DNA from: a virus
Direction: 5' to 3' (one strand)
IMG/VR virus record: IMGVR_UViG_3300029914_001572
Span: 1 to 35,012 of that record
DNA: 35,012 nucleotides
Shown here: positions 2,932 to 30,180 of the stretch, piece by piece
Layout of the letters: each line of letters starts with the position of its first letter
How positions within the stretch are numbered: the first letter of the stretch is position 1
Position numbers and translations under genes: made by a program
The notes under the pieces: generated by a model
What the model saw: only the letters and a program-made list of their open reading frames with translations
Database searches by the model: none
Told to the model about the DNA's origin: nothing

Positions 2932-3861
2932 ATGGCCTCACCGCACCCCAAACCCGCTCCCTGGCTGTTGACGGCAGGTACCTCGACAGCCTCCCTCGTC
3001 AATTTGGTTTTAGCCTCGGTTCCCTCGCCCAACACCCGCCGAAGCTACGCCAAAGGCATCGCCGATCTGCTGGCCTTCGCCGATGGCCGCCCCATCACCA
3101 GGGTCCTGCTGCTTGAGTGGCGCGCGGCCATGAAAGCCGCCGGCCGATCCGCTTCCACCGTGAACCTGCGAATCAACTCGGCGCGCGCCCTGGTCCGGGA
3201 GGCGCTGGGGTCAGGGGCTGTCGACGCCGCGCAGGCCTTCGATCTGCTGCGCGTGGGCAACCTGCCCGTCCGCGGGGTCCGCGTCGGCAACTGGCTGACA
3301 GAAACGCAGGTCGACGAGCTGCTCGCCGTCCCTGATCGCACCACGCTTCGCGGCAAGCGTAATTACTGCATCCTGGCTGTGCTGGTTGGCTGCGCGCTGC
3401 GCGAAGAGGAACTCTTGACGCTCAAACTGGAGGACATCCAGAGCCGCGCCGGGCGCTGGGTGATACTCAACCTGATGAGCAAGGGCGGGCGGGTGCGGAC
3501 CGTCGCAGTCCAACCATGGGTCAAGCAGGCTATCGACGCCTGGGCCAGCGCCGCGAAGATTCGCGATGGCAGGCTGATCCGCCAGACCACGCTCGCGCCT
3601 GGCGGGGTTTCCTCCGCAACCATCTGGAATATCGTGCGTGCCGCCGCCGCAAAAATAGGCGTCGCCAACTTCGGGCCCCATGATCTTCGTCGCACCTGCG
3701 CCAAGCTCTGCCACACCAGGGGGGCCAACATCGAGCAGGTCCAGCGGATGCTCGGCCACGCCGATATCCGGACGACTGCCCGGTACCTCGGCACCGAGCA
3801 GGATCTGGTGAACGCCCCCAACGACCGGCTGGTCTTCGGAGCACCCTCGAAAAACCATTAA
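2932..3861 (+). CDS. int: Tyrosine recombinase / phage integrase
   Basis: 309 aa. The SAM-like N-terminal core-binding domain is at about 20-115 (SPNTRRSYAKGIADLLAF), and the catalytic domain at about 122-300. All catalytic residues are visible: R157 in GCALREEEL, K184 in SKGGRVR, H250-x-x-R253 in PHDLRRT, H276 in LGHADI, and Y285 in TTARYLG. It breaks and rejoins DNA at att or dimer-resolution sites. The length and lack of an obvious extra arm-binding domain make it Xer/Cre-like. It could therefore serve as integrase, plasmid-dimer resolvase, or both. The ATG at 2932 has no good Shine-Dalgarno sequence; the in-frame GTG upstream runs straight into a stop. A perfect inverted repeat lies about 125 bp past the stop. 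No att core could be defined from one sequence. Confidence 0.9.
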   Translation: MASPHPKPAPWLLTAGTSTASLVNLVLASVPSPNTRRSYAKGIADLLAFADGRPITRVLLLEWRAAMKAAGRSASTVNLRINSARALVREALGSGAVDAAQAFDLLRVGNLPVRGVRVGNWLTETQVDELLAVPDRTTLRGKRNYCILAVLVGCALREEELLTLKLEDIQSRAGRWVILNLMSKGGRVRTVAVQPWVKQAIDAWASAAKIRDGRLIRQTTLAPGGVSSATIWNIVRAAAAKIGVANFGPHDLRRTCAKLCHTRGANIEQVQRMLGHADIRTTARYLGTEQDLVNAPNDRLVFGAPSKNH

Positions 3862-5764: not shown

Positions 5765-8368
5765 TTATGCAGTCGTGAGCGAACCGATCAGGAAATAGCC
5801 GAGCTTGCCCAGGAAGTCCGACGTGTGGATCGTGGCCACGGGCGTGATCGCGCCACCGGAGAAGGTCGCATCGACGTAATAAACGTAGTAGAGCGTGCTT
5901 TGCACCAGGCTCGGGATGGTGACCGCTCCGGCCGGCAAGCAACTCACCGACAGGCTTCCAACCGTTGCCGTGAACGGCGCGACGACGATATCAGCGGTCG
6001 CGCCGGTGACAGCGCTGGTCAGTGTGCCAGAAGGCGCCACTACTACGCCGGAAGTTGCGGAGATCGAGAGCGTAATGCTGATCGTGTCGCTCACTGTGAC
6101 CCAGACGCTGAATGTCCCGCGCGGGCGAAGCGAACGAATCTGGAAGTTGTAGGCAGAGCCGGCAATGACTCCGGCGACGAATGCCTGGAACATGCTCACG
6201 TCGACAATGCCGGCGCTCAACCAGGTCGTAGCTCCCACGGCCTGATACTGGATCTCAATCTGCGTGACGGTGTTGTCGGCAGGCGTGGTCCATGAGACGA
6301 GAGCACGCGGCGTGACGTTGCCATCCGCACCGATCAGCGCTGTGCCAGCGGAGCTGGTCACCGTCATGGATGACGGCGGCGCCGGTGACAGCGGAATCTG
6401 TGAAGCCCCCCAGGTGATGTCCTCCGGCGTCAGCTCCTCGGTGATGGACCAGGCGTAAACGGACGGGTCCGTTTCCTGGACGCTGGCGGTGCATGAGATG
6501 GCGAGCGCGCCATCCTCTCCGGAGGCGCTCCTCACAGGCTCGGCGACGAGTTGAATCTTATCGAATTCCAGATATTTGCCACTCCACCCCATCACTTCGA
6601 AACTGAAGTCCATCACGTCTGTAGGCACGGCCTGCCACGCGGCAAGGTTCATTGGGAAAGTGCCGGTGCCCTGTTGCCTGTTGCGCATCAGGTTGATCTT
6701 GGCCACGCGCTGCGCCTGGACTACCGAGATGACGCCGCGCAGGCTCAGCTCCTTCGGCAGCACAATGCCGCCATCGGCAGCGAGATATTGATTCGACGTG
6801 TAGCCATGCAGGGAATCGGGCTGGTACTGCGGGAATGAAGTCGTCTGCCAGGCGTAATTCCAGAGGTTGTTCGTCGTGCCGTAGTACCAGCCGTTGGTGT
6901 CGTACAAATTGCCGGTCAGGGCATAGGGATAGTTCGGCGCGGTGTAGGTGCCGTTGACGCAGTTGATCAAATCCTTGAGGCTGCGATAGGGACTCCAGGC
7001 GATTGAGTCGGTGAGGTTAGACTCGTCGAATGCAAAGCTTGGTCCCTGCCAGTAGGCGGGGAAGATGAACCACTCGCCACCGACGCGGCTGAGCCGGCCT
7101 GCGGCCGCCGGCATCATCGACGCCAGTGCATCACCGGGCGGCGTCGACGTGTCGTAGTGAATGTGCTGCTGAAAGTTCGATTCATTGCCCTGAGAGGTTG
7201 CGACCATCTGATCGCAGACGTTAGCAGCCGCGATGAGCTGGGCCTGGTTCACGGACGGATCGCCGAGGCCGAAGACGGGGTCGGCGATCACGTCGGCAAC
7301 CTGGAGAGCCCAGTTGGTGCTGAATCCGTAAGTCGAGGTGCGTGGATCCCAAATGGTGTTTTTGCCGTTCACCGTGATGCGGATCTCCGGCTCGCCGGGA
7401 AACTGGGTCGTGTCGTATCCGATGTTCAAATACAGATATGCAACGCCCCCGCCGCGTGCTGTCGTCGGCCACTGGCTGTCGTTGGCAGTGAGCGAGGCCA
7501 TGTAATCCCCAGGAGGTTGATCACCGAAGCGCACCTCGCAAAAAGCCTTGTTGGCAAAGTTGTAATGCGCGCCGCCAGGGCCGATGCCGTAGCCCAGGCC
7601 GTAGCCGGGAATGGCGGGGTCCTGCTGATCGGCGGCGCCGCTTCCACCGAAGGTGTACTTGCCCTGCACATCCGCGGTTGGAGTGGATGTGTAGCCGCTG
7701 CCGCCCGTCACCATTGTGACCGTCCATGCGCCGACGACAAAGTCTGTGCCGTAGCCGCCGGGCCCCGCGTTCGTGGCCCAGGCCTCGGCACCGGATCCGC
7801 CGCCTCCGGAGATAAACACGCGGAACCGCGTTGGCTTGATGTTCGAAAAGCCGGATCCACCCGTGGCAGTGATTCCGGTAATGACTCCGCCGGATACCGT
7901 GACGGTCGTTGTGGGTGGTGTGGATACATGGCCGCAGCCGATGTTCGCGGCGTTGCCGTTCTGCGCGAAATACAGTTGCCGGCCGTCCAGGTAGACGTTG
8001 ATGAAACTGTCAATCGTCCAGGTCGCGACCGGGATTATAAAGTTCATGACGTAGTTGCCGCCGGAGCCCCCCGCGCCCGTGGTGGACTTGTAGGTGATGG
8101 TTCCGCCGACGCGCTGCTGACCGTAGATGAGCTGGCGAAGCCCCGCAGCGGTCCTGGTCGAAATGTTCATGCCCCGGTTGCCAGTGAGGGCCTCGGCGAT
8201 TGCGCCGGCCTCCATGGAGACGCCAGCGCCGAGCAAGCCCACTTCGATGGTGCCCAGCATCCCGGACAGGTACAAGCTCGCGGGTATCAGCAAGGGATCG
8301 AGTATGCTGGCCGTGACGAGCGCTGCATCGGCTAGCAGGATGCCGGCTCCGTAAATTGCTTTAGACAT
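5765..8368 (-). CDS. gpJ-like tail tip / host-specificity protein with FN3 domain
   Basis: 867 aa. The hydrophobic N-terminus (1-60) is followed by RQLIYGQQRVGGTITY (about 80-95), the recurring start of lambda gpJ-like tail tip proteins. A Gly-rich beta region (about 155-260) contains two GGSGF/GGSGY-type repeats. The core then resumes (CEVRFGDQPPGDY; ADVIADPVFGLGDPSVNQAQ, the gpJ 'phage tail 3' segment). A fibronectin type III domain is at about 665-765, with an unassigned ~100-aa beta C-terminus. The protein sits at the tail tip and contacts the receptor. At its start it overlaps the end of the DUF6950-like gene by 8 bp. It is shorter than lambda gpJ (1132 aa), with the Gly-rich module as an apparent insertion. 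Confidence 0.82.
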   Translation of the reverse strand: MSKAIYGAGILLADAALVTASILDPLLIPASLYLSGMLGTIEVGLLGAGVSMEAGAIAEALTGNRGMNISTRTAAGLRQLIYGQQRVGGTITYKSTTGAGGSGGNYVMNFIIPVATWTIDSFINVYLDGRQLYFAQNGNAANIGCGHVSTPPTTTVTVSGGVITGITATGGSGFSNIKPTRFRVFISGGGGSGAEAWATNAGPGGYGTDFVVGAWTVTMVTGGSGYTSTPTADVQGKYTFGGSGAADQQDPAIPGYGLGYGIGPGGAHYNFANKAFCEVRFGDQPPGDYMASLTANDSQWPTTARGGGVAYLYLNIGYDTTQFPGEPEIRITVNGKNTIWDPRTSTYGFSTNWALQVADVIADPVFGLGDPSVNQAQLIAAANVCDQMVATSQGNESNFQQHIHYDTSTPPGDALASMMPAAAGRLSRVGGEWFIFPAYWQGPSFAFDESNLTDSIAWSPYRSLKDLINCVNGTYTAPNYPYALTGNLYDTNGWYYGTTNNLWNYAWQTTSFPQYQPDSLHGYTSNQYLAADGGIVLPKELSLRGVISVVQAQRVAKINLMRNRQQGTGTFPMNLAAWQAVPTDVMDFSFEVMGWSGKYLEFDKIQLVAEPVRSASGEDGALAISCTASVQETDPSVYAWSITEELTPEDITWGASQIPLSPAPPSSMTVTSSAGTALIGADGNVTPRALVSWTTPADNTVTQIEIQYQAVGATTWLSAGIVDVSMFQAFVAGVIAGSAYNFQIRSLRPRGTFSVWVTVSDTISITLSISATSGVVVAPSGTLTSAVTGATADIVVAPFTATVGSLSVSCLPAGAVTIPSLVQSTLYYVYYVDATFSGGAITPVATIHTSDFLGKLGYFLIGSLTTA

Positions 8369-8818: not shown

Positions 8819-9376
8819 TCAGGCCACCCAAATAAGCGCCTGGTCATTCAAACTTTCAACGGATTGGAAGAAAGTGTCGCCGGGGAAATAAAGCATCTGG
8901 TCCGCCGATGTGTAGCGGCGCATGTTGGCCCGTGACAGGTTCGAGAGCTTGTTCTCGAGGGCCAGCGTGATCGACAGCGTCTTGGTTCCGATCTGAATCT
9001 TGGGCTGATCAACAGTGCCCACGAACAGCGGGTATGGCGTGCCGAAGATGTTGCCGTTTAAGTCCAGAAGGCCGAAGTAGATCGTCACCGGCGCGCCTAG
9101 CTGGATGTCGGCCATGCACTCATCGAGCAACAAAGGATCGATGGCGGAGAGCGAGATCGAAGAGCCGTATGCCTGAACGTCCGTGCCTTCGACGATGGGC
9201 GAAAGCTTGCCGAAATCGCCCACGCCTGTGTACGTGTTTCCGGCGTAGACGAGGTTGCCGACGCCGGTCCAGCAATGCACAACCTGGCTATGAAAAGTGA
9301 TGATCGCCATGAACAGCGGCCGCACGTAATTCGAGACCAGCGGGGCAACCATGGGGGCGGAGATGTTTCTGGGCAT
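8819..9376 (-). CDS. Distal tail / baseplate hub-like protein
   Basis: 185 aa. Beta-rich N-terminus with VHCWTGVGNLVYAG and YTGVGDFGKLSPI, then GTPYPLFVGTVDQPKI. The C-terminal part has RRYTSADQMLYFPGDTFF and ends in ALIWVA. The TG.G...Y.G.Y.G pattern and the 'RRYT..DQ...PGD..F' block recur in tail proteins of the DUF2163/gene-transfer-agent hub type. It is coupled to the gene before it (TAATG overlap at 9374-9378) and to the DUF6950-like gene after it. The role in linking tail tube to tail tip is inferred from order and family resemblance. Confidence 0.65.
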   Translation of the reverse strand: MPRNISAPMVAPLVSNYVRPLFMAIITFHSQVVHCWTGVGNLVYAGNTYTGVGDFGKLSPIVEGTDVQAYGSSISLSAIDPLLLDECMADIQLGAPVTIYFGLLDLNGNIFGTPYPLFVGTVDQPKIQIGTKTLSITLALENKLSNLSRANMRRYTSADQMLYFPGDTFFQSVESLNDQALIWVA

Positions 9377-10026
9377 TACCGCACCTCGGTTGCAGAGACC
9401 GAAAGCTGCAGCAGGCCGGTGAAGTCACCGTGCCAGCTACGGGCGTTGTCTTTCAGGCGGAACAGGCCGACCGTGTCGATCAGGTTGATGGCCGTGAGGT
9501 TCGGCGGCGACTTGCGAAGCGAGGGCCAGATAGCAATGGTCGCGTTGCCGCCGGCGTCCGAGTTCACGGCCTCGCAGACAACATGAAGCTGGTAGCCGAT
9601 CTGGAGATAATCGCCGGCGAGAAGCTGGCCGAAGACGTTGGGAGTCCACCCGCTCGTCACGAGGGAAGTGGCCGAGGTGAGGTTGTTCGTCCCCGTGGTG
9701 TTGCAGATAGGAGCGCCCTCTGCCGCTCCGAGCGGAGTTGCGCAGAATGGATCGCCGATTTGAAACACGTTGCCGATGCCGCGAAGCTCGGCCATGAATC
9801 CGCGCCACGGAGAGGCAACCCAGCGATTCATCTTTGGCAGCGTGAAGCTCAATGACCAGCCGTCCGCTCCCGGCCAGGCGAACGTTTGATTCCGCGAGGG
9901 AACGAACGGAGATCCAACATTGGCCACCGCGTCTTCCATCGTCACGCTGATGTCCGCCATGCCGGGATAGGGCGGCAGCGTTATGAGCGTGTAAGTACTC
10001 GACCCAATGGTGATCACTGAGGACAT
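9376..10026 (-). CDS. Minor tail protein following the tape measure (Dit-like position)
   Basis: 216 aa, beta-rich, no TM segment. Marks seen: PPYPGMADISVTMEDAVA near the start, then QTFAWPGADGWSLSFTLP and WRGFMAELRG. The WxxF/PxMxR and 'W..F...LRG' pattern is common in minor tail proteins that follow the tape measure in siphoviruses (distal tail or Dit-like, lambda gpM/L position). A middle segment GTNNLTSATSLVTSGWTPN looks like a small beta insert carrying carbohydrate-binding-like repeats. The stop overlaps the next ATG. Exact family not recognised; tail role from position. Confidence 0.62.
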   Translation of the reverse strand: MSSVITIGSSTYTLITLPPYPGMADISVTMEDAVANVGSPFVPSRNQTFAWPGADGWSLSFTLPKMNRWVASPWRGFMAELRGIGNVFQIGDPFCATPLGAAEGAPICNTTGTNNLTSATSLVTSGWTPNVFGQLLAGDYLQIGYQLHVVCEAVNSDAGGNATIAIWPSLRKSPPNLTAINLIDTVGLFRLKDNARSWHGDFTGLLQLSVSATEVR

Positions 10027-10067: not shown

Positions 10068-12314
10068 CTAGCGGCGCGAACTTGGGCTGCGGCGTGCCGA
10101 ATCCTTCGCGGCTGCATTGCTTGCAGCGACGATGTGTGGAGCTGCCTGCCGGATGCCGCGCTGAACCGCAGCGTTGATTGCGGCCGGGTCGTTGGCGCCG
10201 CGGGCGTCGATGTTCCAGGCGTGGTTGGTGACACCGCCGCCGCTGCCACCGGAAAGCATCGCCGAAGTGTCGCGAGCATTGTTGATCTTTGAAGTGGATC
10301 CAACCTGCAAAAGCTCCGGACCTTTTTCACCGGTCATGTAGAAATCGCCGGGGCTCAGAAGACCGCCACCAGCCTTGGGGATGAGCATGGACGCCAGGCC
10401 GCTCCAGAAGCCGCCGCTGGTAGCTGCCTGGGTCGCCGTCGATACGGCAGTGCCGGCGCTCTTCAGCACACTCGCCATTCGAACCCACATGGGGTTTGCT
10501 TCCGACGTGCCGATCTTGTTGAGGCCGAGTCCCTTCATGAGAGTGCCTTCGGCATCCTGCAATCCGGTCTTCGCAACGCCTGTGAAGATCGCCTTGCCAG
10601 CCTGCTCGAACGGATGATCGCCGGCTTGTGGCTTGGTCGTCAGGACGTGAATGAGGGCGTTGTTCACATCACCCAGCGCACTGGTGACGGTCTCCCTGAA
10701 CTGTGCGCCCCAGTCCTGGGACTTCGCGATAATGTCGGCGAAGGTCTTGTCGACCTGGCCGGTGAATGACGTGCTGAAAGTCGTTGCGCTGTCAGTCGCC
10801 TGCTGAATCTGGTACTTGTATGGGATCTGACTTATCTGATTGCCGACATCCATCATCTGCGCCTGACGCTCGTCTGAAGGAACTTCTTTCTTGAGCTTGG
10901 CAAGCTGCTCATTGAGCGGTACCAGCTCGGCGGCGTAGCTCTTCGCATGCAGCGCAACCTCGGCCAGAGCCGCTGCATGCGGGGTCAAAGCGCCCGTGGA
11001 TTCCAGCGCCTTCAGCTTGACCTGGCCGAGTTCCCCGGTGAACTTCGCGTAGGCTTCATAACCCTTGGCCAGCTCCGCCGCGATCTTGTTCCCGCCCTCA
11101 TGCGGATCCATGTTGATGAAATTCAGGACCCCGTCAGGGACGTTCTTGATGGCCGTGGATTTGCGGATCTCGTCGAACTGCTTCGAGCGAGCCTCGTACC
11201 CCGAATAGAGTTTGTCCTGGATGGAGTCGTATTCCGATGATCCTCGGCCGAACGCGGAAATCCTCGCCGCCCAGAACTGAATCTCGTCCTCAACAGACAT
11301 CCCCCAAAGCGCCTTGGTTTTCTTGAACAGCTCCTCCATAACCTTGTAGGAATCGGCGCTCGCTGTACCGGCTTGGGTGAGCCTGGTGTTCTGGCCCTGG
11401 AGAGCCTCATGTTGCTGAGTCGCCCGGATGACAGTTACCTCATCACGGCTCGATGCCTGCATATCATTGACGTCGTTCATTTCCGGAGCGTAGTTCGCAC
11501 CGTAGTTGGCATGCATCGTGTCGATCTTGCGGACCGCGCCTGAACCATCCAGGTACGTGTGCTTTCCCGTGCTGAGAGCTTCCAGCTCGTTGCGACGGGT
11601 GGCCAATGAACTGCTGAAGCTGTTTGCCTCGGCCAGCCGCGCCTCTGGCGTGGCCGCGTCCCTCATGTGGAGGCGGTGCTGCTCCTCCATCGTCTGCTCG
11701 TAGCCGTTCCGAGACTTGTTCCCCCAGATGGAACTAATCAGGCCGACATCTGTTTTCTGGAGAGCGTCTTCAATTAATTTGATGTCGTCGCCGAGTTGCT
11801 TCTGCAGATCCTCGGCGGCCTTCTTGGCTTCAAGGATGGCGATCAGTGGACCGTTCCTCTGCGGCTTGTGTTCCAGCTTGGCGTTCGTGTCCTCCAGCTT
11901 CGCGTTGGCCAGCTCTATTTCGGTGTTCGTTCTCTGCATGGAACCGTGGATCGAACCCCACGCCTCTTCGTGTTTCTTCGCAGCTTCCTCGGACTTTTGG
12001 GCGAACTCGACAACCTTCTTCGTGACTTCCACAACGGTGTTTATCAGGGCGAACACAACGACTGCATCGAAGGCCAGGTTCATGGCTGTGGTAATTCCCG
12101 GCAGCTTGCTGATGATTCCCTGAAGACCGCGTGGAATGCCTAGCCCCAGTTCTTCGGAAAGCAGGCGAACAGACTCGCGGCTCCTGTCCATCTGCTCGCG
12201 CATATCCGCGGCCATCTTCTTCGTCAGTCCCTGGGCTTCCCCAATGGCTGCTTTGAAGTTGGCGATCTGGAGCTCGAGCGAGACGTATGCTGCTGCTACT
12301 TTGCGTGAGGCCAT
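10068..12314 (-). CDS. Tail tape measure protein
   Basis: 748 aa, among the longest proteins here. It is strongly helical with a coiled-coil region at about 110-200 (KSEEAAKKHEEAW; ANAKLEDTNAKLEHK), a hydrophobic helix at about 70-95 (LAFDAVVVFALINTVVEV) and a further apolar region near 650-680. A Gly/Ser-rich stretch lies near the C-terminus. Tape measures fix tail length at about 1.5 A per residue, so a tail near 110 nm is predicted (family rule, not measured). Normally this gene directly follows the G/T chaperones; here a 3-kb gene lies between them. Start ATG at 12314. Confidence 0.85.
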   Translation of the reverse strand: MASRKVAAAYVSLELQIANFKAAIGEAQGLTKKMAADMREQMDRSRESVRLLSEELGLGIPRGLQGIISKLPGITTAMNLAFDAVVVFALINTVVEVTKKVVEFAQKSEEAAKKHEEAWGSIHGSMQRTNTEIELANAKLEDTNAKLEHKPQRNGPLIAILEAKKAAEDLQKQLGDDIKLIEDALQKTDVGLISSIWGNKSRNGYEQTMEEQHRLHMRDAATPEARLAEANSFSSSLATRRNELEALSTGKHTYLDGSGAVRKIDTMHANYGANYAPEMNDVNDMQASSRDEVTVIRATQQHEALQGQNTRLTQAGTASADSYKVMEELFKKTKALWGMSVEDEIQFWAARISAFGRGSSEYDSIQDKLYSGYEARSKQFDEIRKSTAIKNVPDGVLNFINMDPHEGGNKIAAELAKGYEAYAKFTGELGQVKLKALESTGALTPHAAALAEVALHAKSYAAELVPLNEQLAKLKKEVPSDERQAQMMDVGNQISQIPYKYQIQQATDSATTFSTSFTGQVDKTFADIIAKSQDWGAQFRETVTSALGDVNNALIHVLTTKPQAGDHPFEQAGKAIFTGVAKTGLQDAEGTLMKGLGLNKIGTSEANPMWVRMASVLKSAGTAVSTATQAATSGGFWSGLASMLIPKAGGGLLSPGDFYMTGEKGPELLQVGSTSKINNARDTSAMLSGGSGGGVTNHAWNIDARGANDPAAINAAVQRGIRQAAPHIVAASNAAAKDSARRSPSSRR

Positions 12315-12334
12315 GAGTGTTTACTCCAATGGAC

Positions 12335-12356
12335 AGGGCGACCTGATGGCCGCCCT
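12335..12356 (-). promoter_or_regulatory. Hairpin between fibre-like gene and tape measure
   Basis: A nine-bp stem with one mismatch (12335-12343 with 12348-12356, loop of four) lies just past the stop of the SGNH/fibre gene and before the tape measure start. There is no T run, so attenuation or mRNA end protection is more likely than full termination. Confidence 0.45.
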
Positions 12357-12378
12357 GTGGTGCACGGGAAGGTGGGGC

Positions 12379-15300
12379 TTAGTAACTCGGATACCACTTT
12401 GCTGTGGCCGGGTCGTAGGTCATGGTTTCGAGCTTCGACAGCACCGCCGTAGACGCGATGGCAATGTTGCCAGCGGTAGTCGTGGTCCAGAGAGCATCTG
12501 GGATGAGCGTCACCTGGCACCCAACTCCGGCTGTCGTGCAGCCCGTGGGCGCTGTGATCGTCGCAATGGCCGTGGTGCCCGTGATGTGAACCGCCGGAGA
12601 TACAGGGGCAATCGTTGTGGCCGATGCAATGGCTGTACCGATGGTCAACTTGGGAATGCCCTGCGTCGTGACCGGCTCATAGACATTGGACCCAATGAGG
12701 GTTTGCACCTGAGCCGACGTTGCCGCTGTCGCTGTGCTGGTGCCGTTGCCATATACGACACCCGTCAACCCTGCGACCTGGTTGGATGTGGTTGCGTTCG
12801 TTGCATTCGTAACAGCCGTTGAACCGATTGCGGACACCATTTGCGCTGCTGTCGACGCAGTATGGGCACTCGTGCCATTGCCATAGAGGACGCCCGTAAC
12901 CGTTCCCGCTTCGCCTGTGCCACCTATCGACGCGGGAATCGTGCTGGCAGCTACAGTTAACGATGGAGTTGTGGTGCTCGTGGTGACGGTAGGAACCAGC
13001 CAAGTAGGCCACGAGACAGAAGGTGCAGAAAAACTTGTAACTTCGTTTGTGGCGCTTGTGGCGATGATCGAGGCTGTTCCAATCGCTTGCAGAACCGGGG
13101 ACGCACCACCTGTCATTTCGATGCAATTCGACCCACCGTCAGCACAGAACTTAACTGGCATCGCTGTTGAGGTTCCTTGAGATTCTACCTCTAACATTGG
13201 GCCTGTTGAAGTGTTGCCAGTTGTGTCCTCTATGAAAAACTGAGCAGCAGTGGGGGAACCTGTATCCGCACCAAACACATACGCAGTATTGAACGTTGTT
13301 CGTGCGCCGCCTGTCCAAGTAAAAGTGAACGCATTATTCAGTGGCATGGATAAATTGAGATTCCCGGTCGGATTGCCGAGATAATTCCATCGTGTCGAGA
13401 GTGTGGATGGAAAGTCAGCCTGTACCAACGGCCTACATGATGCCGATCCAGGGGAACTTCCTGTCCCCGGTCCCGCCGCAATAGCATTTGCCGCACAATT
13501 GGGGCTCGTGAACTGCGGGCCAGTTTGGTTGTTCACAGCGGCAGTAAGACCGAGAAAAGCAGAAGTGCCACCCGAACCTACAGAAGTGAGCGGTTGTCCG
13601 TTCAAGTTGCAAATATAGACATTTGGGGCAACCCCGCATAAATCACCGCCAACAGCGCCCTGAAACGGGATGGTTTTTGCCGCCGTGCCATTTACTTGCC
13701 CCATCGACGAAAAGTTCATCAACTTTAGAAATTCGTTGGCGATAGTGATTGAGTTTGCGGCATTCGGATGCGTGCCGTCGTAGCCATTGCAGTTAGGTAA
13801 AAGATTTGAGGTGTAGCATGCCCCGCGCACATCGGCATTGGCGATTCCGAGGCCATCTCCTGATAGTTCGTCCGTCACTTGCTGGATATTCTGATCGAGC
13901 CCGTCTAACTGAGCGTCAGTGTGCGCGGCGTCCTTGTACATCGTCGCAGCATAGTCATAAGGCCCGGTATTCGTAAGTTGGTTTCCGTTTCCGGCAACGC
14001 CAATAATACGTAGTTTGTCCGTTGAATAGGCGCTGACATAGGTCACGGTCATGACGTGCAGACCATTGTTTAGCCCTGCGAAGCGCAGCGCATACGCAGA
14101 TGTGCAGGACGCTACTAATGAGCTAGTTGGGCAGGTGTTCGGTCGTCCAGTTCCCAGCGGGGTGCTCCACGCCAGAAACGGCGTAAAAAGATTGCATTGG
14201 TAATTGATGCAACCGGCACCGCCGGATATTTGCGCAACCCCTTGTGGTTGTAGTTGAGTTACCGGAGATCCACCGAAACTGGTGATTGTTACGTTGAAAG
14301 CCGGGTAAGTGGTGGTGGTCGCGCCCACGATAAGGTAGCCGGTTGTGCCATAGAAAGAGCAGGTCCAGGTTGAACCGTTAGTGTTTGTTGCCAGCACGCC
14401 GGGAATTGATCCGACTGTAGTCCCGTTGTAATTGGGCAGCCATGTGTCGGAAGCCCATGTGCCGGATGTGGCACAAGCCGAACTCTGCCCGCTCTTGAGA
14501 TTTGGAGCGAGTTTCCAAAGATAAGCCGCGCGTAGAGACGCAATCCATTCAGGTTCGGGATAGCTTGGAGGATTGTAGTTTAGTTCGTTTTCGCCAATGA
14601 GCAAGCTGCTAACCGAGGTCGCGGTTACTGGAGGATCGGCGTAGATGCGTAGGTTCTGATCATACAACTGATCCCCATTGTTGCCTTCGTTGGTGAGAGT
14701 CCACCCTTGCGCTGCCGCGATTAAAGGTGCGTATGCCTGTGCGCAAGGTTCAGTAGTACCGCATGGTCCATAACCAGCCGTGATCGAGTCACCATTCGCC
14801 GTCCAAGCCCGCCCGCGCAGTGTTGTGCCGTTGATGGCGTTAACGACCGCACTCGTTGCCGCGACGGTGCCTGCGACATTGATGCCGTTCGTCCCATTCG
14901 AAGTGAGGCCGGGGATGAATCCAGCGCCGGCTGGCCCGGTCGGGCCGGCAGGGCCGGTTTGGGTGACAACCAGCGCGGCCTCGTTAGGTGGGTACACGTC
15001 GAAGCTGCAAGCGCCGCCCACACTCGTGGCAGCGGTGCAGAAGCCGCTGGAGACGGCAGATCCAGAGCCAGCGGGTTGTACGCACGAGTAGCCCGGACCC
15101 AACAGCTGCCTGCCGCTTACGTTGTCTGTCACGGTGAGCGAGTAGCAAATATTGATGGGCAAGGTCAGCGCGGTGTCGGCGAGCTGGATAGTAAACACGC
15201 CGTTCGTGACAATCGTAGCAACGGTGCTGGACACCGACTGACCTAAACCATTCACGCGGAAGCCGAGCGGCGACCCGGAGTTATTGACTGGCGAGGCGTG

Positions 15301-15450
15301 TAGGGTGGCGTTCGCGATCAGGTTGCCCGTGGAGTCCTGCAGCTGGTTGCTGCTAAGGGACACGTAACCCAGAGGCGTGGTGGCGAACGAGGCGACGGCA
15401 AACGCGAGGGGGCACGCGCCCAGCAGGGCGGACCGCAGAAACTTATTCAT
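12379..15450 (-). CDS. Signal-peptide-bearing SGNH-hydrolase / tail-fibre-like protein
   Basis: 1023 aa. A Sec-type signal peptide lies at 1-23 (hydrophobic core ALLGACPLAFAVASFA). A beta domain (24-155) follows, then a short collagen-like GPAGPTGPAGAG at 166-177. The SGNH/GDSL esterase domain spans about 210-580: block I GDS (S222 nucleophile), block II glycine near 256-259 (EGNNGD), block III GEN (N288), and block V DGTH (D558, H561). Residues about 320-480 look like an inserted beta domain. The C-terminal 440 aa are Thr/Ser/Ala/Gly-rich, with two copies of a G-V-x-Y-G-N-G-T-S unit, as in fibre shafts. Such hydrolases deacetylate surface glycans. It could be a virion depolymerase or a secreted lysogenic-conversion enzyme; the signal peptide favours the second. 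The DNA is visibly more A+T-rich than its neighbours (13681-13740: 28/60 G+C). Confidence 0.72.
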   Translation of the reverse strand: MNKFLRSALLGACPLAFAVASFATTPLGYVSLSSNQLQDSTGNLIANATLHASPVNNSGSPLGFRVNGLGQSVSSTVATIVTNGVFTIQLADTALTLPINICYSLTVTDNVSGRQLLGPGYSCVQPAGSGSAVSSGFCTAATSVGGACSFDVYPPNEAALVVTQTGPAGPTGPAGAGFIPGLTSNGTNGINVAGTVAATSAVVNAINGTTLRGRAWTANGDSITAGYGPCGTTEPCAQAYAPLIAAAQGWTLTNEGNNGDQLYDQNLRIYADPPVTATSVSSLLIGENELNYNPPSYPEPEWIASLRAAYLWKLAPNLKSGQSSACATSGTWASDTWLPNYNGTTVGSIPGVLATNTNGSTWTCSFYGTTGYLIVGATTTTYPAFNVTITSFGGSPVTQLQPQGVAQISGGAGCINYQCNLFTPFLAWSTPLGTGRPNTCPTSSLVASCTSAYALRFAGLNNGLHVMTVTYVSAYSTDKLRIIGVAGNGNQLTNTGPYDYAATMYKDAAHTDAQLDGLDQNIQQVTDELSGDGLGIANADVRGACYTSNLLPNCNGYDGTHPNAANSITIANEFLKLMNFSSMGQVNGTAAKTIPFQGAVGGDLCGVAPNVYICNLNGQPLTSVGSGGTSAFLGLTAAVNNQTGPQFTSPNCAANAIAAGPGTGSSPGSASCRPLVQADFPSTLSTRWNYLGNPTGNLNLSMPLNNAFTFTWTGGARTTFNTAYVFGADTGSPTAAQFFIEDTTGNTSTGPMLEVESQGTSTAMPVKFCADGGSNCIEMTGGASPVLQAIGTASIIATSATNEVTSFSAPSVSWPTWLVPTVTTSTTTPSLTVAASTIPASIGGTGEAGTVTGVLYGNGTSAHTASTAAQMVSAIGSTAVTNATNATTSNQVAGLTGVVYGNGTSTATAATSAQVQTLIGSNVYEPVTTQGIPKLTIGTAIASATTIAPVSPAVHITGTTAIATITAPTGCTTAGVGCQVTLIPDALWTTTTAGNIAIASTAVLSKLETMTYDPATAKWYPSY

Positions 15451-15482: not shown

Positions 15483-15791
15483 TTAGAGAATTGGCACGCC
15501 TGGCCGAACTGCGATCAGGGCAAATTTGGCCGCGAACGACTCCGCGATCTCATCGTCGGTGGGCTCCTTGACCTTGCGACCTAACATGAAATCTTCAGAG
15601 CTGAGCGGGGGATCGGGGCGCGCCATCGAGAAGTTGGCGGTAACTGAGGCCAGGATTCCGACCAGGTAGTTGCTGCGATCGAGGGCCTGCTTGTGCCGGC
15701 GCAGGAGAGCGGAGAACTGCCGCGGGGTAAGGGACCAGAAGTCAGCGTCGGATAAGTGTAGATCGTAACGCGCTGAACTCCACAATCCCAT
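15483..15791 (-). CDS. Tail assembly chaperone T-part (gpGT-type, reached by -1 frameshift)
   Basis: From the ATG at 15791 the frame gives 102 aa, but that ATG has no Shine-Dalgarno sequence. The frame is open back into the upstream gene: after a -1 slip at CCCCC (15827-15831) it reads QDGPELTNAQRW straight into it. The core FWSLTPRQFSALLRRHK is the familiar T-domain motif that recruits the tail tube protein in lambda-like phages. The full G-T product would be about 226 aa (112 from frame 0 plus 114). It acts with the tape measure during tail assembly and is absent from the virion in lambda. It lies immediately upstream of the SGNH gene instead of the tape measure, which is unusual. Confidence 0.78.
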   Translation of the reverse strand: MGLWSSARYDLHLSDADFWSLTPRQFSALLRRHKQALDRSNYLVGILASVTANFSMARPDPPLSSEDFMLGRKVKEPTDDEIAESFAAKFALIAVRPGVPIL

Positions 15792-15808: not shown

Positions 15809-16162
15809 TTAGCTCTGGTCCGTCCTGGGGGCCGTGTCTTCGTCCGCCTCGGTGTCAGGTTCGGCCATGCCGGCGCTCCAACATGCGAGCACAGCGGACC
15901 ATATCTCGGACAGGTTCTTGCGCGTCACGAGAGTCTTGACTTCGGCCAGGGTGGACTTCGGGTTCAGGGGAAGCATCGCGGCGTAAAGCATGGCCCGGAC
16001 CAGGTTGATCGAGGGCGCGGAAATGTCGCGTGAGCGCAACCCGGTCAGCAGCGCGCGGTCGGTTACATCTTCGGCGACGGCGACCGCTTCGAAGGAAAAG
16101 AGCAGTTGGAACGTGGCCTCGCCGATGGTCAGGGATGTGGAAGGTGCTACGGGGTTAGTCAT
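15809..16162 (-). CDS. Tail assembly chaperone G-part
   Basis: 117 aa. Mixed alpha/beta start (TIGEATFQLLFSFEAVAVAED), helical middle (INLVRAMLYAAMLPLNPKS), and an acidic C-terminal tail (EPDTEADEDTAPRTDQS). Length, acidic tail and position directly after the tail tube gene match gpG-type chaperones, which coat the tape measure. The last codons GCC CCC AGG before the stop hold a CCCCC run where a -1 shift would open the T frame. In the family most ribosomes stop here and a few percent shift. A strong hairpin (16188-16215) separates it from the tail tube gene. Confidence 0.75.
   Translation of the reverse strand: MTNPVAPSTSLTIGEATFQLLFSFEAVAVAEDVTDRALLTGLRSRDISAPSINLVRAMLYAAMLPLNPKSTLAEVKTLVTRKNLSEIWSAVLACWSAGMAEPDTEADEDTAPRTDQS
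15827..15832 (-). promoter_or_regulatory. Candidate -1 ribosomal frameshift site (GCC CCC)
   Basis: On the - strand the frame-0 codons GCC CCC AGG lie 16 nt before the G-part stop. A -1 slip of the tRNA on CCC keeps perfect pairing (C CCC) and continues into an open frame that runs to the T-part stop. It is not the canonical X-XXY-YYZ heptamer (GGGAAAG in lambda), so the exact slip position is an inference. Confidence 0.5.
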
Positions 16163-23098: not shown

Positions 23099-24787
23099 CT
23101 ACATCGAGAAGCAGCCGATACCGGATTGGCTGGCGGTCGATTCAGCGGTGAGGGCGCGGTTCATCGCGTTAAGTAAGGCGACCGCGCCGTCGATCTTGTT
23201 GGCCGGCTTCTGTTTCTCCGGGAAGGCATTCTCGGACTGGCCGCGAACTTTGGAAACCACGTTGCTCATGCACCAGGTCAACACCGGATCGCCGGTATGG
23301 TGCACGCGGCCGTCGAGGATCGCCGCATCGAGCGACTTCATCGGCAGGCTGAGATACTGCGGAATCTGTGGCACCTCAACGAGCGTGACGCCGGTGGCCA
23401 GGTATAGCTCCTGGGTAAGCTGGTCGCAGTAGCGCTTGTCGTAGCACAGCGCCGTGACGCTGTGGGCCTCGATGTCGGCCGTCAGATCGGTGCGCACTAG
23501 GGCGTAGTCAAGCGCGCTGCCCTCGCAGGGGATCAGGAAGCCCTCGTCCGCCCACTTTTGATAGTGCTGGTTCTGAGGCAGCGAGATCCGATCCTGCGGA
23601 AGGTAGTGCCGCGGGAACACATAGAAATGCAGCTTCCCGTCGGCCGAGCGCACATAAACTTTGACCACGCCGCTGAGATCGAGCACGCTGGCGAGATCCA
23701 TGCCGATGTAAAGTGGATCCGCTTTGAAGTCTTCCTCGCTGAGCGTGGCGTCTGCGCCAGCCGCCCATTTGACCAGGTTGAAATACGCGGCCGATGCCGT
23801 CATCCACTCGCACAAATGCTTGGTGCGGAAGACCCCGGCCTTACCCGCGTTCTTGATGGCCTGTTGCTGATCGTGCAGTAGCGTTTCGAGCGAGACGGAC
23901 ACACCCAGGTTCGGGTTCGCCATCCAGAGAGCCGCTACAGTGGTCCAGTCGGTGCCGGCATCGATCGTGTAGATAACCGTGAAAAGCTGCTCGTCGATCA
24001 GGGCGCCCTCGAGGACGCGCTGCGCGGTGATCTGCAGATCGTGGCACGGGGACGCCGTGTTGAATCCCGCCGTGGTGATGACCAGGAGGAGTGGTTGCTC
24101 TCTCCCGACCATCCCGGTGCGCAGGGTGTCGTACAGCTCCGCTGTGTCTGCCTCGTGAAACTCGTCGCAGATGCCGCATGAGATCGATGCGCCGTCGCCG
24201 GGTTTGCCGATGACGGGGATGAAACTGCCGCCGGTTGCCTCGACGGTGAGCGATCGCGCGTTGGCCTTGATGCCCAGGACCTTGCGCAGGTCAAGGGTTT
24301 TCTCGACCATGATCTTGGCCGGGCGCCATACTTCGAACGCCTGCTTTTCGCTTGTGGCGCCGCAGACTACTTCGGCGCCGGCCTCGTTATCGCACCGCAG
24401 CATGTAGAGGCCGATCGCGGCGGCGAGGGGCGACTTGCCGTTTTTGCGCGGCACACAAATGTACGCTTCGCGGTACCGGCGAAGCCCAGTCTCTTTACTG
24501 AGCCAGCCAAAGATCGAGCAGACAATGAAGATCTGCCAGGGACCGAGCTTGAGCTTCTCTCTGCGCGCTGCCCAGCGGCCCTTGGTGTGGGGAAGCAGTT
24601 CGATGAACTCGCAGGCCTTGTTGGCGGTCGCGTCGTCGAACCTATATGGGAAACCCGGCCGCTCTAAATTCTCAAGGTGCCGGGCTGCAGCAAGGCGGAT
24701 CCACTTGCAAGCCAGGATGGTGCCGTTGGCGACCTCGACCGCGTATTGTGTTGCCGCGCCGGCGTAGCTCAAGCATTCCGTAATCAT
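23099..24787 (-). CDS. terL: Terminase large subunit (HK97/Terminase_1 type)
   Basis: 562 aa. The ATPase domain has the adenine-contact region GPWQIFIVCSIFGWL (82-96), a Walker A-like PRKNGKS (113-119), and Walker B ISCGICDEFHE (D208, E209). A coupling motif LLVITTAGFN (about 234-243) follows. The nuclease domain begins at D364 in YIGMDLASVLDLSG, with further acidic residues in CYDKRYCDQ and in NKIDGAVALLNA near the C-terminus. It drives ATP-dependent packaging into the portal and cuts the concatemer. The ATG at 24787 overlaps the TerS stop (ATGA). With HNH and P27-like TerS it fits a cos-packaging phage. Confidence 0.94.
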   Translation of the reverse strand: MITECLSYAGAATQYAVEVANGTILACKWIRLAAARHLENLERPGFPYRFDDATANKACEFIELLPHTKGRWAARREKLKLGPWQIFIVCSIFGWLSKETGLRRYREAYICVPRKNGKSPLAAAIGLYMLRCDNEAGAEVVCGATSEKQAFEVWRPAKIMVEKTLDLRKVLGIKANARSLTVEATGGSFIPVIGKPGDGASISCGICDEFHEADTAELYDTLRTGMVGREQPLLLVITTAGFNTASPCHDLQITAQRVLEGALIDEQLFTVIYTIDAGTDWTTVAALWMANPNLGVSVSLETLLHDQQQAIKNAGKAGVFRTKHLCEWMTASAAYFNLVKWAAGADATLSEEDFKADPLYIGMDLASVLDLSGVVKVYVRSADGKLHFYVFPRHYLPQDRISLPQNQHYQKWADEGFLIPCEGSALDYALVRTDLTADIEAHSVTALCYDKRYCDQLTQELYLATGVTLVEVPQIPQYLSLPMKSLDAAILDGRVHHTGDPVLTWCMSNVVSKVRGQSENAFPEKQKPANKIDGAVALLNAMNRALTAESTASQSGIGCFSM

Positions 24788-26338: not shown

Positions 26339-26848
26339 TTATCTACGGCACTTCCCCTTGATGCGGTCGAATCGAGCGCGCACGGCGCCCAGGCTCAGGC
26401 CGGTTGCTTCCGCGATGTCGCGCATCTCCGCGCCGTCCACCAGCGCGCCCACCAGGTCAAGCTGATCTACAGTCAGCCAGACGGGCGGCAAATCGCTCAT
26501 GCCCCTGCGCGGGGAATCGTCTGAGTCGTCGCGCGCAAGTTCCTGCTCGAGCATTTCGACGATTCTGGCATCCGACAGGACTGACCGCGCATGGCGGGCC
26601 TTGTCGAGGATCAGGTTGCGGAGAATCTTGCGAAGCCAGGTCGCGCAGCTCGCATGGCGGCCGTCGAACCCGTTAATGTGTTTCCAGACCTGGATGCACG
26701 CCTCCTGCGCAAGGTCCTCGGCATCCTCGCGGCCTTCCAGGCGGCCAACACTCACGGCGAACGCGCGTGACTCCAGAATCATGCCGTCCAGGCTCAGCTC
26801 GCCGGCTTTGTAAGCGACAAAGGATGCTTGCAGTCGGCCGCGCGTCAT
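26339..26848 (-). CDS. ECF-like sigma-70 family factor
   Basis: 169 aa. Start ATG at 26848 overlaps the previous stop (ATGA). Region 2 at about 30-90: EDAEDLAQEACIQVWKHIN (2.2) and the SCATWLRKILRNLILDKARH stretch (2.3-2.4). After an acidic linker (ARDDSDDSPRRG), region 4 at about 125-169 contains AEMRDIAEATGLSLGAVRAR, an HTH that reads a -35 element. This is the two-domain layout of extracytoplasmic-function sigma factors. No anti-sigma is recognised beside it. Together with the next gene it forms a tandem sigma pair inside a phage, probably for late transcription (inference). Confidence 0.85.
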   Translation of the reverse strand: MTRGRLQASFVAYKAGELSLDGMILESRAFAVSVGRLEGREDAEDLAQEACIQVWKHINGFDGRHASCATWLRKILRNLILDKARHARSVLSDARIVEMLEQELARDDSDDSPRRGMSDLPPVWLTVDQLDLVGALVDGAEMRDIAEATGLSLGAVRARFDRIKGKCRR

Positions 26849-27564
26849 GCCGCCAACCCCCTCAGGCTCTTCCTCAGCTTCACCACGCACTTGGCCAGTA
26901 TCTGACCCACTCGTGCCATGCACACACCATGGACCAGGCCGATCTCGCGCAGGGTCATGTCGTCTTCAAAGCGCATCCTGAGAATCGTTTGCTCACGAAT
27001 AGACAACAGGGCCACGGCCTCCATCATCTTGTCTGCGAAGTCCATCCTGATCACGCGATCCAGCTGGTCTTCCCCTTGGCTGGCGACGGTGGCTTTTATG
27101 TCCACTTCGTCACCGCTCTCGTCTATGCGGCCAGGCTTGTCCAGGTCAAACACATACGATCGCGCCAGATCTTCCCTCAACTGGTGCAGGTCTACCAGGC
27201 TCACTTCCAGCAGGGCTGCGATTTCCTCATCTTCAGGGTCTCTCTGTAGCTTTCGGGTAAGTAGTTGCTCTGCGTCGGCCATCTTCCTGCCTCTGCTACG
27301 GGCCACGCGCGAGCACCAGTCCTTCTCGCGTATGCCATCCAGCATGGCGCCAGTTACGCGGCCCCTCATGAACGTTGTGAACGTCGAGCTGCCCGGTTCA
27401 AATCGCCTGGCAGCTTCTATGGCTCCATACGAGGCATCGGACAGCAGGGCGTCGAGGTCTGTTTGCGGCATCTTCTTATGCATGCTGAACGCCAAGCATC
27501 TGACAGCGGTCATGCCTCCGATCACCAATGCTTGCTCCGCTGCGGTCATGGCTGGCTCGCGCAT
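26845..27564 (-). CDS. FliA/WhiG-like sigma factor
   Basis: 239 aa from the ATG at 27564, which overlaps the upstream stop (TGATG); a second ATG five codons later is an alternative. Region 2 contains DLDALLSDASYGAIEAARRF, then STFTTFMRGRVTGAMLDGIR and DWCSR (the -10-reading 2.3-2.4 of the sigma-28 type, where FliA reads 'f..ya..RIrGamlDelR..dW..R'). Region 3 is LLTRKLQRDPEDEEIAALL, region 4 is LSIREQTILRMRFEDDMTL and the HTH VHGVCMARVGQILAK. All four regions are intact, so it should be functional. It couples translationally to the ECF-like factor after it. Confidence 0.9.
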   Translation of the reverse strand: MREPAMTAAEQALVIGGMTAVRCLAFSMHKKMPQTDLDALLSDASYGAIEAARRFEPGSSTFTTFMRGRVTGAMLDGIREKDWCSRVARSRGRKMADAEQLLTRKLQRDPEDEEIAALLEVSLVDLHQLREDLARSYVFDLDKPGRIDESGDEVDIKATVASQGEDQLDRVIRMDFADKMMEAVALLSIREQTILRMRFEDDMTLREIGLVHGVCMARVGQILAKCVVKLRKSLRGLAA

Positions 27565-27803
27565 CAGGCCGCCAACTCTTCGACCCTGATGAGCCGAGCA
27601 TAAAAAAGCGCTGGATTCCACGACGCGACGATGGCGCGTGCGACGCTCGATCCCGCGACGTAGTCTTCCATGACTTTGAGGTTTGGGCGCAAAGATTGCC
27701 CGCACGGCAGCCGCTTGAAGGGCGCGTGGAGCGAGTCGGGGTAGTTGCGCCAGGTGATTTTGATGGGCGCGTGAATGGGGGACTTCATACGTGGCTTTTT
27801 CAT
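27564..27803 (-). CDS. Unknown 79-aa basic protein upstream of the sigma pair
   Basis: Start ATG at 27803 overlaps the upstream stop (ATGA). Basic N-terminus (KKPRMKSPIHAPIKITWRN), a helical middle (NLKVMEDYVAGSSVARAIVA), and end FYARLIRVEELAA. No family recognised. It sits between HTH/small genes and the FliA-like factor, with overlaps on both sides, so it is part of the same operon. The net basic charge could fit DNA or RNA binding, but this is only a guess. Confidence 0.55.
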   Translation of the reverse strand: MKKPRMKSPIHAPIKITWRNYPDSLHAPFKRLPCGQSLRPNLKVMEDYVAGSSVARAIVASWNPALFYARLIRVEELAA

Positions 27804-28360: not shown

Positions 28361-28762
28361 ATGGCCGATTTGCGAGAGCTGTTGACGGCCGCTGTTCACG
28401 CGCTGCGCAGTTACCAGTACGGCAACGCTTCAACCGAACTCGCTGAAGAGATGGCCGACCACATCGACGAAGCGCTCAAGGAGGCGCCAACAATGATCAA
28501 GCCAACCATCGGACGCGTCGTCTGGTTCTGGCCGCACGGTCTAAACCCTGGGACTCAGCCCCAGGCGGCTCTCATCGCCTACGTCCACTCAGATACCATG
28601 GTCAATCTCGCCGTCTTCGACCCCGAGGGCGAAGCGCACAGCCGGACCTCGGTGTGGCTCTATCAAGGCGCCGGGGAAATCCCCGATGGCGCGTACTGCG
28701 AGTGGATGCCGTACCAGATCGGCCAGGCGAAGACTCAGGCCCCTGGCAGCGCCACGCCGTGA
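28361..28762 (+). CDS. Two-part phage protein with a second internal start
   Basis: 133 aa from the ATG at 28361, which has GGAGGT 7 nt upstream. Residues 1-44 are helical (DLRELLTAAVHALRSYQYGN). From residue 45 begins a recurring small phage domain: MIKPTIGRVVWFWPHG, ALIAYVHSDTMVNLAVFDPEG and GAGEIPDGAYCEWMPYQ. That domain is usually a free-standing gene of about 80-90 aa. Its Met codon (28493) has its own AAGGAGG site 8 nt upstream. So both a long (133 aa) and a short (89 aa) form may be made. Function of the domain is unknown. The 3' end overlaps the convergent Crp/Fnr gene by 28 bp. Confidence 0.72.
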   Translation: MADLRELLTAAVHALRSYQYGNASTELAEEMADHIDEALKEAPTMIKPTIGRVVWFWPHGLNPGTQPQAALIAYVHSDTMVNLAVFDPEGEAHSRTSVWLYQGAGEIPDGAYCEWMPYQIGQAKTQAPGSATP

Positions 28763-29445
28763 TCGAACTCCGCGTAGTTATCCAGGTGGTCCTTGATCAC
28801 CCGGTAGCATTCGCACGCGCGCTCCTCAAGGCTCGACGCATCCAGGATGCGCACCGTGCCGCGGACGTAGTCGATCAGCCCCGCGGCCTTGAGCGCGCTG
28901 GCGGCGATCGACACGGTTGAGCGCGTCGCCCCCAGCATGTCGGTCAGGTACTCCTGGCTCAAGGCGAATGTGTCCGTGCGCGCGCGGTCGGCGCAGATCA
29001 GCAGCCACCGCGCAAGGCGCTGCTCAAAGTTATGCCGGCTGTTGCAGCCCGCGCTCTGCATCGCCTGCACCAGTTGCGCCTGCACATAGCGCAATGCCAA
29101 CAACTGGAAGATTCCGCCACGCGCGAATTCGAGCCGCGCCAGCTCTAGCTTTGCCGCAAAGCCCGAGCCTGCGATCTGTGTGTACACGCGGTTCAAGCTG
29201 CGCTTGGTCCCCATCAGCGCGGACACGCCGATAATCGACTCGCAGCCGAACATGCCAACCTCGACCTGGACGCCGTCCTGGAAGGTGGTGGTCATGGACG
29301 CCATGCCAGCCTCAATGAAGAAGAGATGCTCGATCGGCTTTCCCGGAAACTCAAACTCATGAGCCAGATCGAACTTCACCGGGCGCAACCGCAGCCGTCC
29401 AACTACCTCGGCCGAAAGCGCGCGCAGAACAGTGTTCGTGTACAT
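28735..29445 (-). CDS. Crp/Fnr-family transcription regulator
   Basis: 236 aa. Cyclic-nucleotide-binding-like beta roll at about 25-120 (HEFEFPGKPIEHLFFIEAG; VEVGMFGCESIIGVSALMG), a dimer helix (FQLLALRYVQAQLVQAMQSA, then the FEQRLARWLL transition), and a winged HTH at about 160-215 (ALSQEYLTDMLGATRSTVSIAASALKAAGLI). The cAMP-contact R/T/S residues of Crp are not evident, so it may sense nothing or another ligand. It ends with ACECYRVI, common in this branch. It is divergent from the WGR-gene promoter across 123 bp, so it may control that block. The ATG at 29445 was chosen as the only Met ahead of the fold. Confidence 0.85.
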   Translation of the reverse strand: MYTNTVLRALSAEVVGRLRLRPVKFDLAHEFEFPGKPIEHLFFIEAGMASMTTTFQDGVQVEVGMFGCESIIGVSALMGTKRSLNRVYTQIAGSGFAAKLELARLEFARGGIFQLLALRYVQAQLVQAMQSAGCNSRHNFEQRLARWLLICADRARTDTFALSQEYLTDMLGATRSTVSIAASALKAAGLIDYVRGTVRILDASSLEERACECYRVIKDHLDNYAEFDHGVALPGA

Positions 29446-29488: not shown

Positions 29489-29517
29489 TTGTTTCCGCAT
29501 TTTAATCTTGCTATATG
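29489..29517 (+). promoter_or_regulatory. Promoter of the rightward accessory block
   Basis: -35 TTGTTT (29489-29494), a 17-bp spacer, -10 TATATG (29512-29517). Start of transcription near 29524 leaves a ~45-nt leader with GAGG before the ATG at 29569. This also rules out the earlier in-frame ATG at 29515, which lies inside the -10. Confidence 0.5.
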
Positions 29518-29568
29518 TATTACTTTGTCCTACATTTCACACAGCCCAAGAGAAAAGAGGCACCACCG

Positions 29569-30180
29569 ATGAGCATCGAGTCAATCGACCTCTCATGCCG
29601 CGAAGGCTTTCATGACAAGGTTTATCGCGCACAGATCGAAGAGGCCGGCAACGGCTACGTAGTCAATTACCAGTTCGGCCGTAGAGGCACGGAATTGTCC
29701 CGTGGAACCAAGACTGACACGCCGGTGTCACTTGCCGAAGCAACTAGCGTTTTCGACAAGCTGGCGAAACAGAAGCTCGGCAAAGGCTACTTCAGGGAGG
29801 TCGAGTGCGCCAACAAAAATACGGCCATGGTTGCAGGACAGGCTTTGACTCAAGATAGCGTAAATGCTGCATTGAGGTGGCTGTGGGAACGGGCGGAGCA
29901 TCTGAAAACAAGAGACAACGCCCTCGCCTTCGTGGAGATGCTCCACTGGCGTGATCTCGCCATAAAAGAGTTCTTCGCCCAAGGTTACGCTCTTCAGCCC
30001 CTCATCTCCGGCAGCGAAGTACATACACACTACAGCACGTCCCGGAATGAATCCGCGGTGCGCTGGCTTGAGAAGCTGGCATTCGCATCGGACAAGGCAG
30101 AGAACCCCGCCACTCTGCTGGCAATGCTCAACTGGCGCGACAAGACTCTCGTAGAACGCGGCATCGAACTGACGGGCTGA
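29569..30180 (+). CDS. WGR-domain protein with two C-terminal helical repeats
   Basis: 203 aa. The N-terminal WGR domain is at about 5-78: GFHDKVYRAQIEEAGNGYVV, then NYQFGRRG (residues 34-41; the WGR signature with Phe for Trp) and LAEATSVFDKLAKQKLGKGY. WGR domains bind nucleic acids in PARPs and in some bacterial regulators. Residues about 99-141 and 162-201 look like two copies of one ~40-aa helical unit, each with RWL early and M-L-x-W-R-D (MLHWRD, MLNWRD) later. No catalytic domain is seen. It heads a rightward block under its own promoter and is divergent from a Crp/Fnr regulator. Role unknown; DNA/RNA binding is inferred. Confidence 0.75.
   Translation: MSIESIDLSCREGFHDKVYRAQIEEAGNGYVVNYQFGRRGTELSRGTKTDTPVSLAEATSVFDKLAKQKLGKGYFREVECANKNTAMVAGQALTQDSVNAALRWLWERAEHLKTRDNALAFVEMLHWRDLAIKEFFAQGYALQPLISGSEVHTHYSTSRNESAVRWLEKLAFASDKAENPATLLAMLNWRDKTLVERGIELTG

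Follow-up and report, generated by a model that had tools for sequence, protein, structure and literature searches.

A candidate family of exported, modular tail-fibre proteins in siphophages of soil Acidobacteria

The late gene cluster of a probably temperate Acidobacteriota siphophage encodes a protein of 1023 residues, P0001, which we assign with good confidence to a family of modular fibres and which, from the sequence of its N-terminus, is predicted with still higher confidence to be exported. The family, whose members are exchangeable tail-fibre proteins of phages infecting soil Acidobacteria, is previously undescribed. Among annotated phages (50,697 phage records) no match was found to P0001 or to the signal-less version of its N-terminal domain (N-domain), and the part of the literature that we covered yielded signal-peptide endolysins and signal-less fibres or depolymerases only, with no signal-peptide tail fibre. 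Our best explanation, to which we give about even credence, is that P0001 might be a modular side tail fibre with an SGNH esterase head that is exported via Sec, disulfide-bonded and attached to the tail at or after lysis. The family, its export signal, the pairing of its cysteines and the swapping of its cargo are supported by sequence comparison; the attachment to the virion and its timing, the trimerisation, the enzyme activity and its substrate are what we infer for P0001.

The window, that is the whole 35,012-base virus record that was analysed, has the late gene set of an HK97-like siphophage, encoded on the minus strand in the order terminase (24787-23099), portal, protease, capsid, head-tail genes, major tail protein and G/T chaperones, followed by the P0001 gene, tape measure, distal tail, further tail genes and tip protein. 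The open reading frame of P0001 (12379-15450, minus strand, ATG at 15450) starts 32 bases after the preceding gene, a T-chaperone-like ORF (15483-15791, minus strand) that is 64-86% identical in relatives; the G-chaperone-like tail protein lies at 15809-16162 (minus strand, phrog_2115). Immediately downstream of P0001 is the tape measure protein (10068-12314, minus strand, phrog_3779), and the distal tail protein (9376-10026, minus strand, phrog_1302) and the tail tip or central fibre protein (5765-8368, minus strand, phrog_5616) are encoded further on. The location between chaperones and tape measure given in the original prediction was thus confirmed, the strand being minus. By eye, a possible hairpin with a 7-bp stem (CAGGGCG...CGCCCTG) and no T run is seen in the gap between fibre gene and tape measure (12315-12378, minus strand).

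Outside the tail module, the phage carries a tyrosine integrase (2932-3861) and, at the end of the record, a ParA-like ATPase (34371-35012, minus strand). Two adjacent, overlapping sigma-factor genes lie upstream of the terminase genes (26339-27705, minus strand), one of them ECF-like (Sigma70_r2, E 1e-14) and the other with regions 2, 3 and 4; the late genes may be served by sigma factors that the phage itself supplies. A CRP/FNR-type regulator gene (28735-29445, minus strand; HTH_Crp_2, E 2e-15) was also observed, as well as a gene for a WGR-domain protein (29515-30180, plus strand), located where G+C is lower; the neighbouring gene (30251-30898) encodes a small protein that begins like a signal peptide.

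P0001 is composed of several segments, all encoded on the minus strand. Residues 1-23 (15382-15450) form a predicted Sec-type signal peptide with the anatomy MNKFLRSALLGACPLAFAVASFA^TTP and an AxA-like cleavage site, SFA^TTP. Signal peptides were called here by our own heuristic rule (basic n-region, hydrophobic core, AxA-like site) and not by SignalP; by these n/h/c-region rules the signal peptide proposed earlier is present, and conservation agrees, Ala23 being invariant among 10 close homologues. The N-domain (residues 24-165; 14956-15381), a beta domain that resembles lambda Stf-type domains, contains four cysteines (102, 123, 138, 148) that are likewise invariant among the 10 close homologues. 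It is followed by the expected collagen-like sequence, GPAGPTGPAGAG, which begins at residue 166 and with a linker extends to residue 205 (14836-14955); the collagen start is conserved in alignment A1, which comprises ten N-domains. Residues 206-590 (13681-14835) are the SGNH-hydrolase-like cargo, with a possible insert at about 321-500, and residues 591-1023 (12382-13680; GC3 48-66%) form a C-terminus ending in ...LETMTYDPATAKWYPSY, the repetitive, fibre-like character of which was borne out. The mature protein contains 22 cysteines, an even number, and no long hydrophobic anchor was found in it.

The cargo is a putative SGNH esterase, called from its motifs and a sub-threshold Pfam match. 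All catalytic blocks are at the predicted residues and in order (GDSI with Ser222, GENE with Asn288, DGTH with Asp558/His561), and Lipase_GDSL_2 (PF13472) matches residues 220-299 with E 2.4e-6, at 28.6 bits against a gathering score of 32.9. About 270 residues separate the GENE and DGTH blocks, which is compatible with the inserted beta domain proposed earlier. P0001 thus shares the ordered blocks of SGNH/GDSL hydrolases, including esterase tail proteins, but differs in its sub-gathering score and in the long stretch between second and third block. A single-sequence fold model of this part was of low confidence (pLDDT 31). A search of the PDB by sequence gave no match, no close SGNH relatives beyond near-identical copies of the same virus were found in the viral and genome collections, and in profile comparison with the SGNH ends of three signal-less family members (L032, L035, L039) only the first blocks align, weakly. 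Low GC3 also marks this segment. The base counts cited as evidence of A+T-rich DNA are exact on recounting (28/60 G+C at 13681-13740, 38/60 at 23101-23160), but the drop does not extend to the N-terminus: G+C is 53-54% and GC3 48-62% in the SGNH and following C-terminal segments, whereas signal peptide and N-domain have a GC3 of 77-87%, in line with the 73-81% of other late genes. Only the swapped cargo is low in G+C and foreign in composition, and the N-terminal segments are phage-native.

Using the distal tail protein as bait, we found six relatives besides near-identical copies. In five of them (L006-L010) one or two genes between T chaperone and tape measure share the N-terminus of P0001, and two more distant phages (L018, L024) show the same arrangement; in the sole relative without a slot gene (L011), the tape measure directly follows the chaperones. 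Only the first ~180 residues of the slot genes in L006-L010, corresponding to signal peptide, beta domain and collagen start, are shared with P0001 (51-63% identity). The remainder is a beta-propeller and collagen fibre in L007, L008 and L010, a long collagen/repeat fibre in L006 and another SGNH-like protein in L009. The N-terminus therefore appears to be fixed and the C-terminus exchanged. The two exported fibre genes of L006 are followed by a further small gene (6789-7277), whose product (MKKFLLLAVLMCATMAHA...) looks secreted and contains two cysteines and a GPTG motif.

Used as query, A1 found the domain in 36 viral contigs, at two loci in Acidobacteriota MAGs and in 12 of the 399 genomes of the host class. 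In total, 48 genes besides P0001 carry the N-domain in tail modules of Acidobacteriota siphophages; the domain of P0001 is 55-65% identical to other A1 members and 41-63% identical in A2. These genes, many of which lie on fragmentary contigs, occupy several slots, namely between chaperone and tape measure, between tape measure and distal tail, before a hydrolase-like gene and after the tip. A signal peptide is predicted in 33 of the 49, P0001 included, while the other 16 start at the domain itself (M-P-T-G-Y/F-T...); a Shine-Dalgarno-like sequence precedes almost every start. Both versions are found in the same gene slots, the tape-measure/distal-tail and after-tip slots being used by either, and carry similar glycan-active cargo: the signal-less ends include SGNH (L032, L035, L039), lectin-like (L037) and beta-helix (L031) types, and short cargo segments are common to the two versions (L022 with L042/L044; L031 with L058). 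Both were never found together in one tail module among the modules examined, with 10 kb flanks and some contigs short. One N-domain copy, present in the record of L032 and in a matching genome, is split over two overlapping frames (L052/L064/L068) and is apparently broken by a frameshift.

The two versions differ in their cysteines. Among signal-bearing genes, signal lengths and sequences diverge while the architecture is kept, and the number of domain cysteines is even in 33/33 cases (2, 4, 6 or 8). Signal-less genes usually have one unpaired domain cysteine; most have Gly at the first cysteine position, a lone second cysteine and no segment with the third and fourth. After removal of near-copies, domain counts are even in 29/29 signal-bearing versus 4/12 signal-less genes (Fisher p 5e-6). 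Whole mature signal-bearing proteins, with 1.9 Cys per 100 aa, have even counts in 22/24 (p 2e-5), and tip proteins of the same phages in 9/23. A preference for even cysteine numbers is known from exported, disulfide-bonded bacterial proteins (PMC7678975). On a domain tree built with the cysteine columns removed, in which many forks are unresolved, the signal-peptide state changes about 2 times and well-supported branches provide 1 independent pair for the link between signal and cysteines; the link therefore represents one or two events, without phylogenetic replication. The even-step changes within the signal-bearing group, where departures from four domain cysteines lead always to 2, 6 or 8 and occur in several lineages, are stronger evidence than this association. 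As predicted from their sequences, export and disulfide bonding of the signal-bearing proteins are well supported.

Several observations suggest that the N-domain resembles the N-terminal domains of lambda Stf-type fibres. Its AlphaFold2 model (pLDDT 84) found several tail-fibre proteins among its best viral Foldseek matches, with modest scores, and nothing better than E 0.02 in the PDB. In hhalign, the domain aligned with lambda Stf N-terminus to N-terminus over 55 residues with a score of 28.2 (pairwise p/E 0.002, probability 13%), whereas unrelated phage proteins reached 20.3 at the most and 60 shuffles 17.0. Among the fibre families of Pfam and PHROG, none matched the domain with a credible score. 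SGNH, lectin-like and beta-helix ends are typical of receptor-binding or depolymerase fibres, and since signal-less siblings carry such cargo in the same slots, the domain appears to serve a cytoplasm-made fibre too. With lambda Stf and EPclA-type side tail fibres the family shares a beta domain at the very start (in the signal-less siblings), a collagen segment and a swappable C-terminal end, as in the N-domain/collagen/C-domain layout of E. coli prophage fibres (PMC3368898). P0001 differs from them in its Sec signal peptide, conserved cysteine pairs, SGNH cargo, position between chaperone and tape measure and lack of a Pfam or PHROG match.

According to our explanation, P0001 would be expressed from the late tail operon, carried across the inner membrane by its Sec signal peptide, cleaved by signal peptidase after Ala23 and folded with disulfide bonds outside the cytoplasm, forming trimers there by means of its collagen segment and C-terminus. 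Upon cell lysis, the N-domain, with its look of Stf-type docking, would join the tail of the released virion; breakage of the envelope is the presumed route by which a periplasmic P0001 would meet cytoplasmic tails. During adsorption, the SGNH domain might strip ester groups (e.g. acetyl) from polysaccharides of the next host's surface or matrix. Late attachment of fibres is feasible in phage assembly. A late phage enzyme that leaves the cytoplasm by Sec is the signal-peptide endolysin Lys44 of fOg44 (PMC6116005), although this is a lysis enzyme encoded outside the tail module and without fibre architecture.

Signal peptide, paired cysteines and the missing membrane anchor would also suit our main alternative, a soluble periplasmic or secreted late esterase/adhesin family that never joins the virion and strips or masks the surface glycan of dying cells and cell debris, which would keep progeny from being trapped or prevent superinfection. 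The esterase and sugar-binding cargo fits such a role, and lambda offers a precedent with lom, an exported-protein gene inside the tail region between J and the side-fibre gene. Lom, however, is an outer-membrane protein and not a modular fibre, and we know of no signal-less fibre siblings of it. Signal-less proteins that share the domain and the slots could not act in this way before lysis, the conservation of the N-domain while the cargo changes points to a partner that stays constant, for instance the tail, and the fold matches are fibre-like; we consider the off-virion role rather unlikely. That the hydrophobic N-terminus is instead an uncleaved plug or anchor holding an ordinary, cytoplasm-assembled fibre in the tail agrees with the fibre-type architecture and with the long hydrophobic stretch at the start of the tip protein of the same phage. 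It is improbable in view of the basic n-regions, the small -3/-1 residues just before the conserved domain (-1 Ala being invariant in the close set), the even-cysteine rule and the signal-less siblings, which need no such anchor.

The original prediction had offered a lysogenic-conversion enzyme remodelling the host surface or a fibre/depolymerase captured from a secreted host protein, and the fibre/depolymerase option proved to be the better half. Export signal, SGNH motifs, low-G+C cargo and the phage integrase would agree with a moron acting on the lysogen surface, but we regard this as very improbable. Within the late operon the gene stands close to its neighbours, and recent acquisition of the whole gene was rejected on synteny, with the homologous N-terminus in the same slot of seven other phages, on native N-terminal composition and on the finding of no promoter or terminator above shuffled expectation, the promoter scan being a weak test. 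Capture from a host protein is not borne out for the N-terminus: homologues with readable surroundings lie in phage tail modules, and the domain is rare in the host-class genomes.

N-domain genes occur in Acidobacteriales/Acidobacteriaceae MAGs, and homologues of the tip protein in 19 of 399 genomes of the class, with identities of up to 56-59% in the aligned part; in prophage regions of two of these 19 (L084, L086), the tip gene is directly followed by fibre-like genes that bear a signal peptide. The host of the phage is therefore probably an Acidobacteriota bacterium of the class Terriglobia.

Fibres of tailed phages are assembled in the cytoplasm according to the textbook, and to our knowledge no tail fibres are known that leave the cell before the phage is complete. 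We propose, tentatively and with a little less than even confidence, that this phage clade Sec-exports its fibres, oxidises them outside the cytoplasm and fits them at or after lysis, while siblings would keep the fibre cytoplasmic and lack the cysteine pairs, through loss or from the outset. Because exported and non-exported siblings occur naturally in shared operon slots, a different route of fibre assembly can be put directly to the test, and such a route could account for disulfide-stabilised fibres suited to life in soil. Signal-peptide 'auxiliary' carbohydrate enzymes in soil viromes may, as a caution, be tail parts. For phages of the Acidobacteriota, which are abundant and little studied, our work also provides a list of host-recognition modules.
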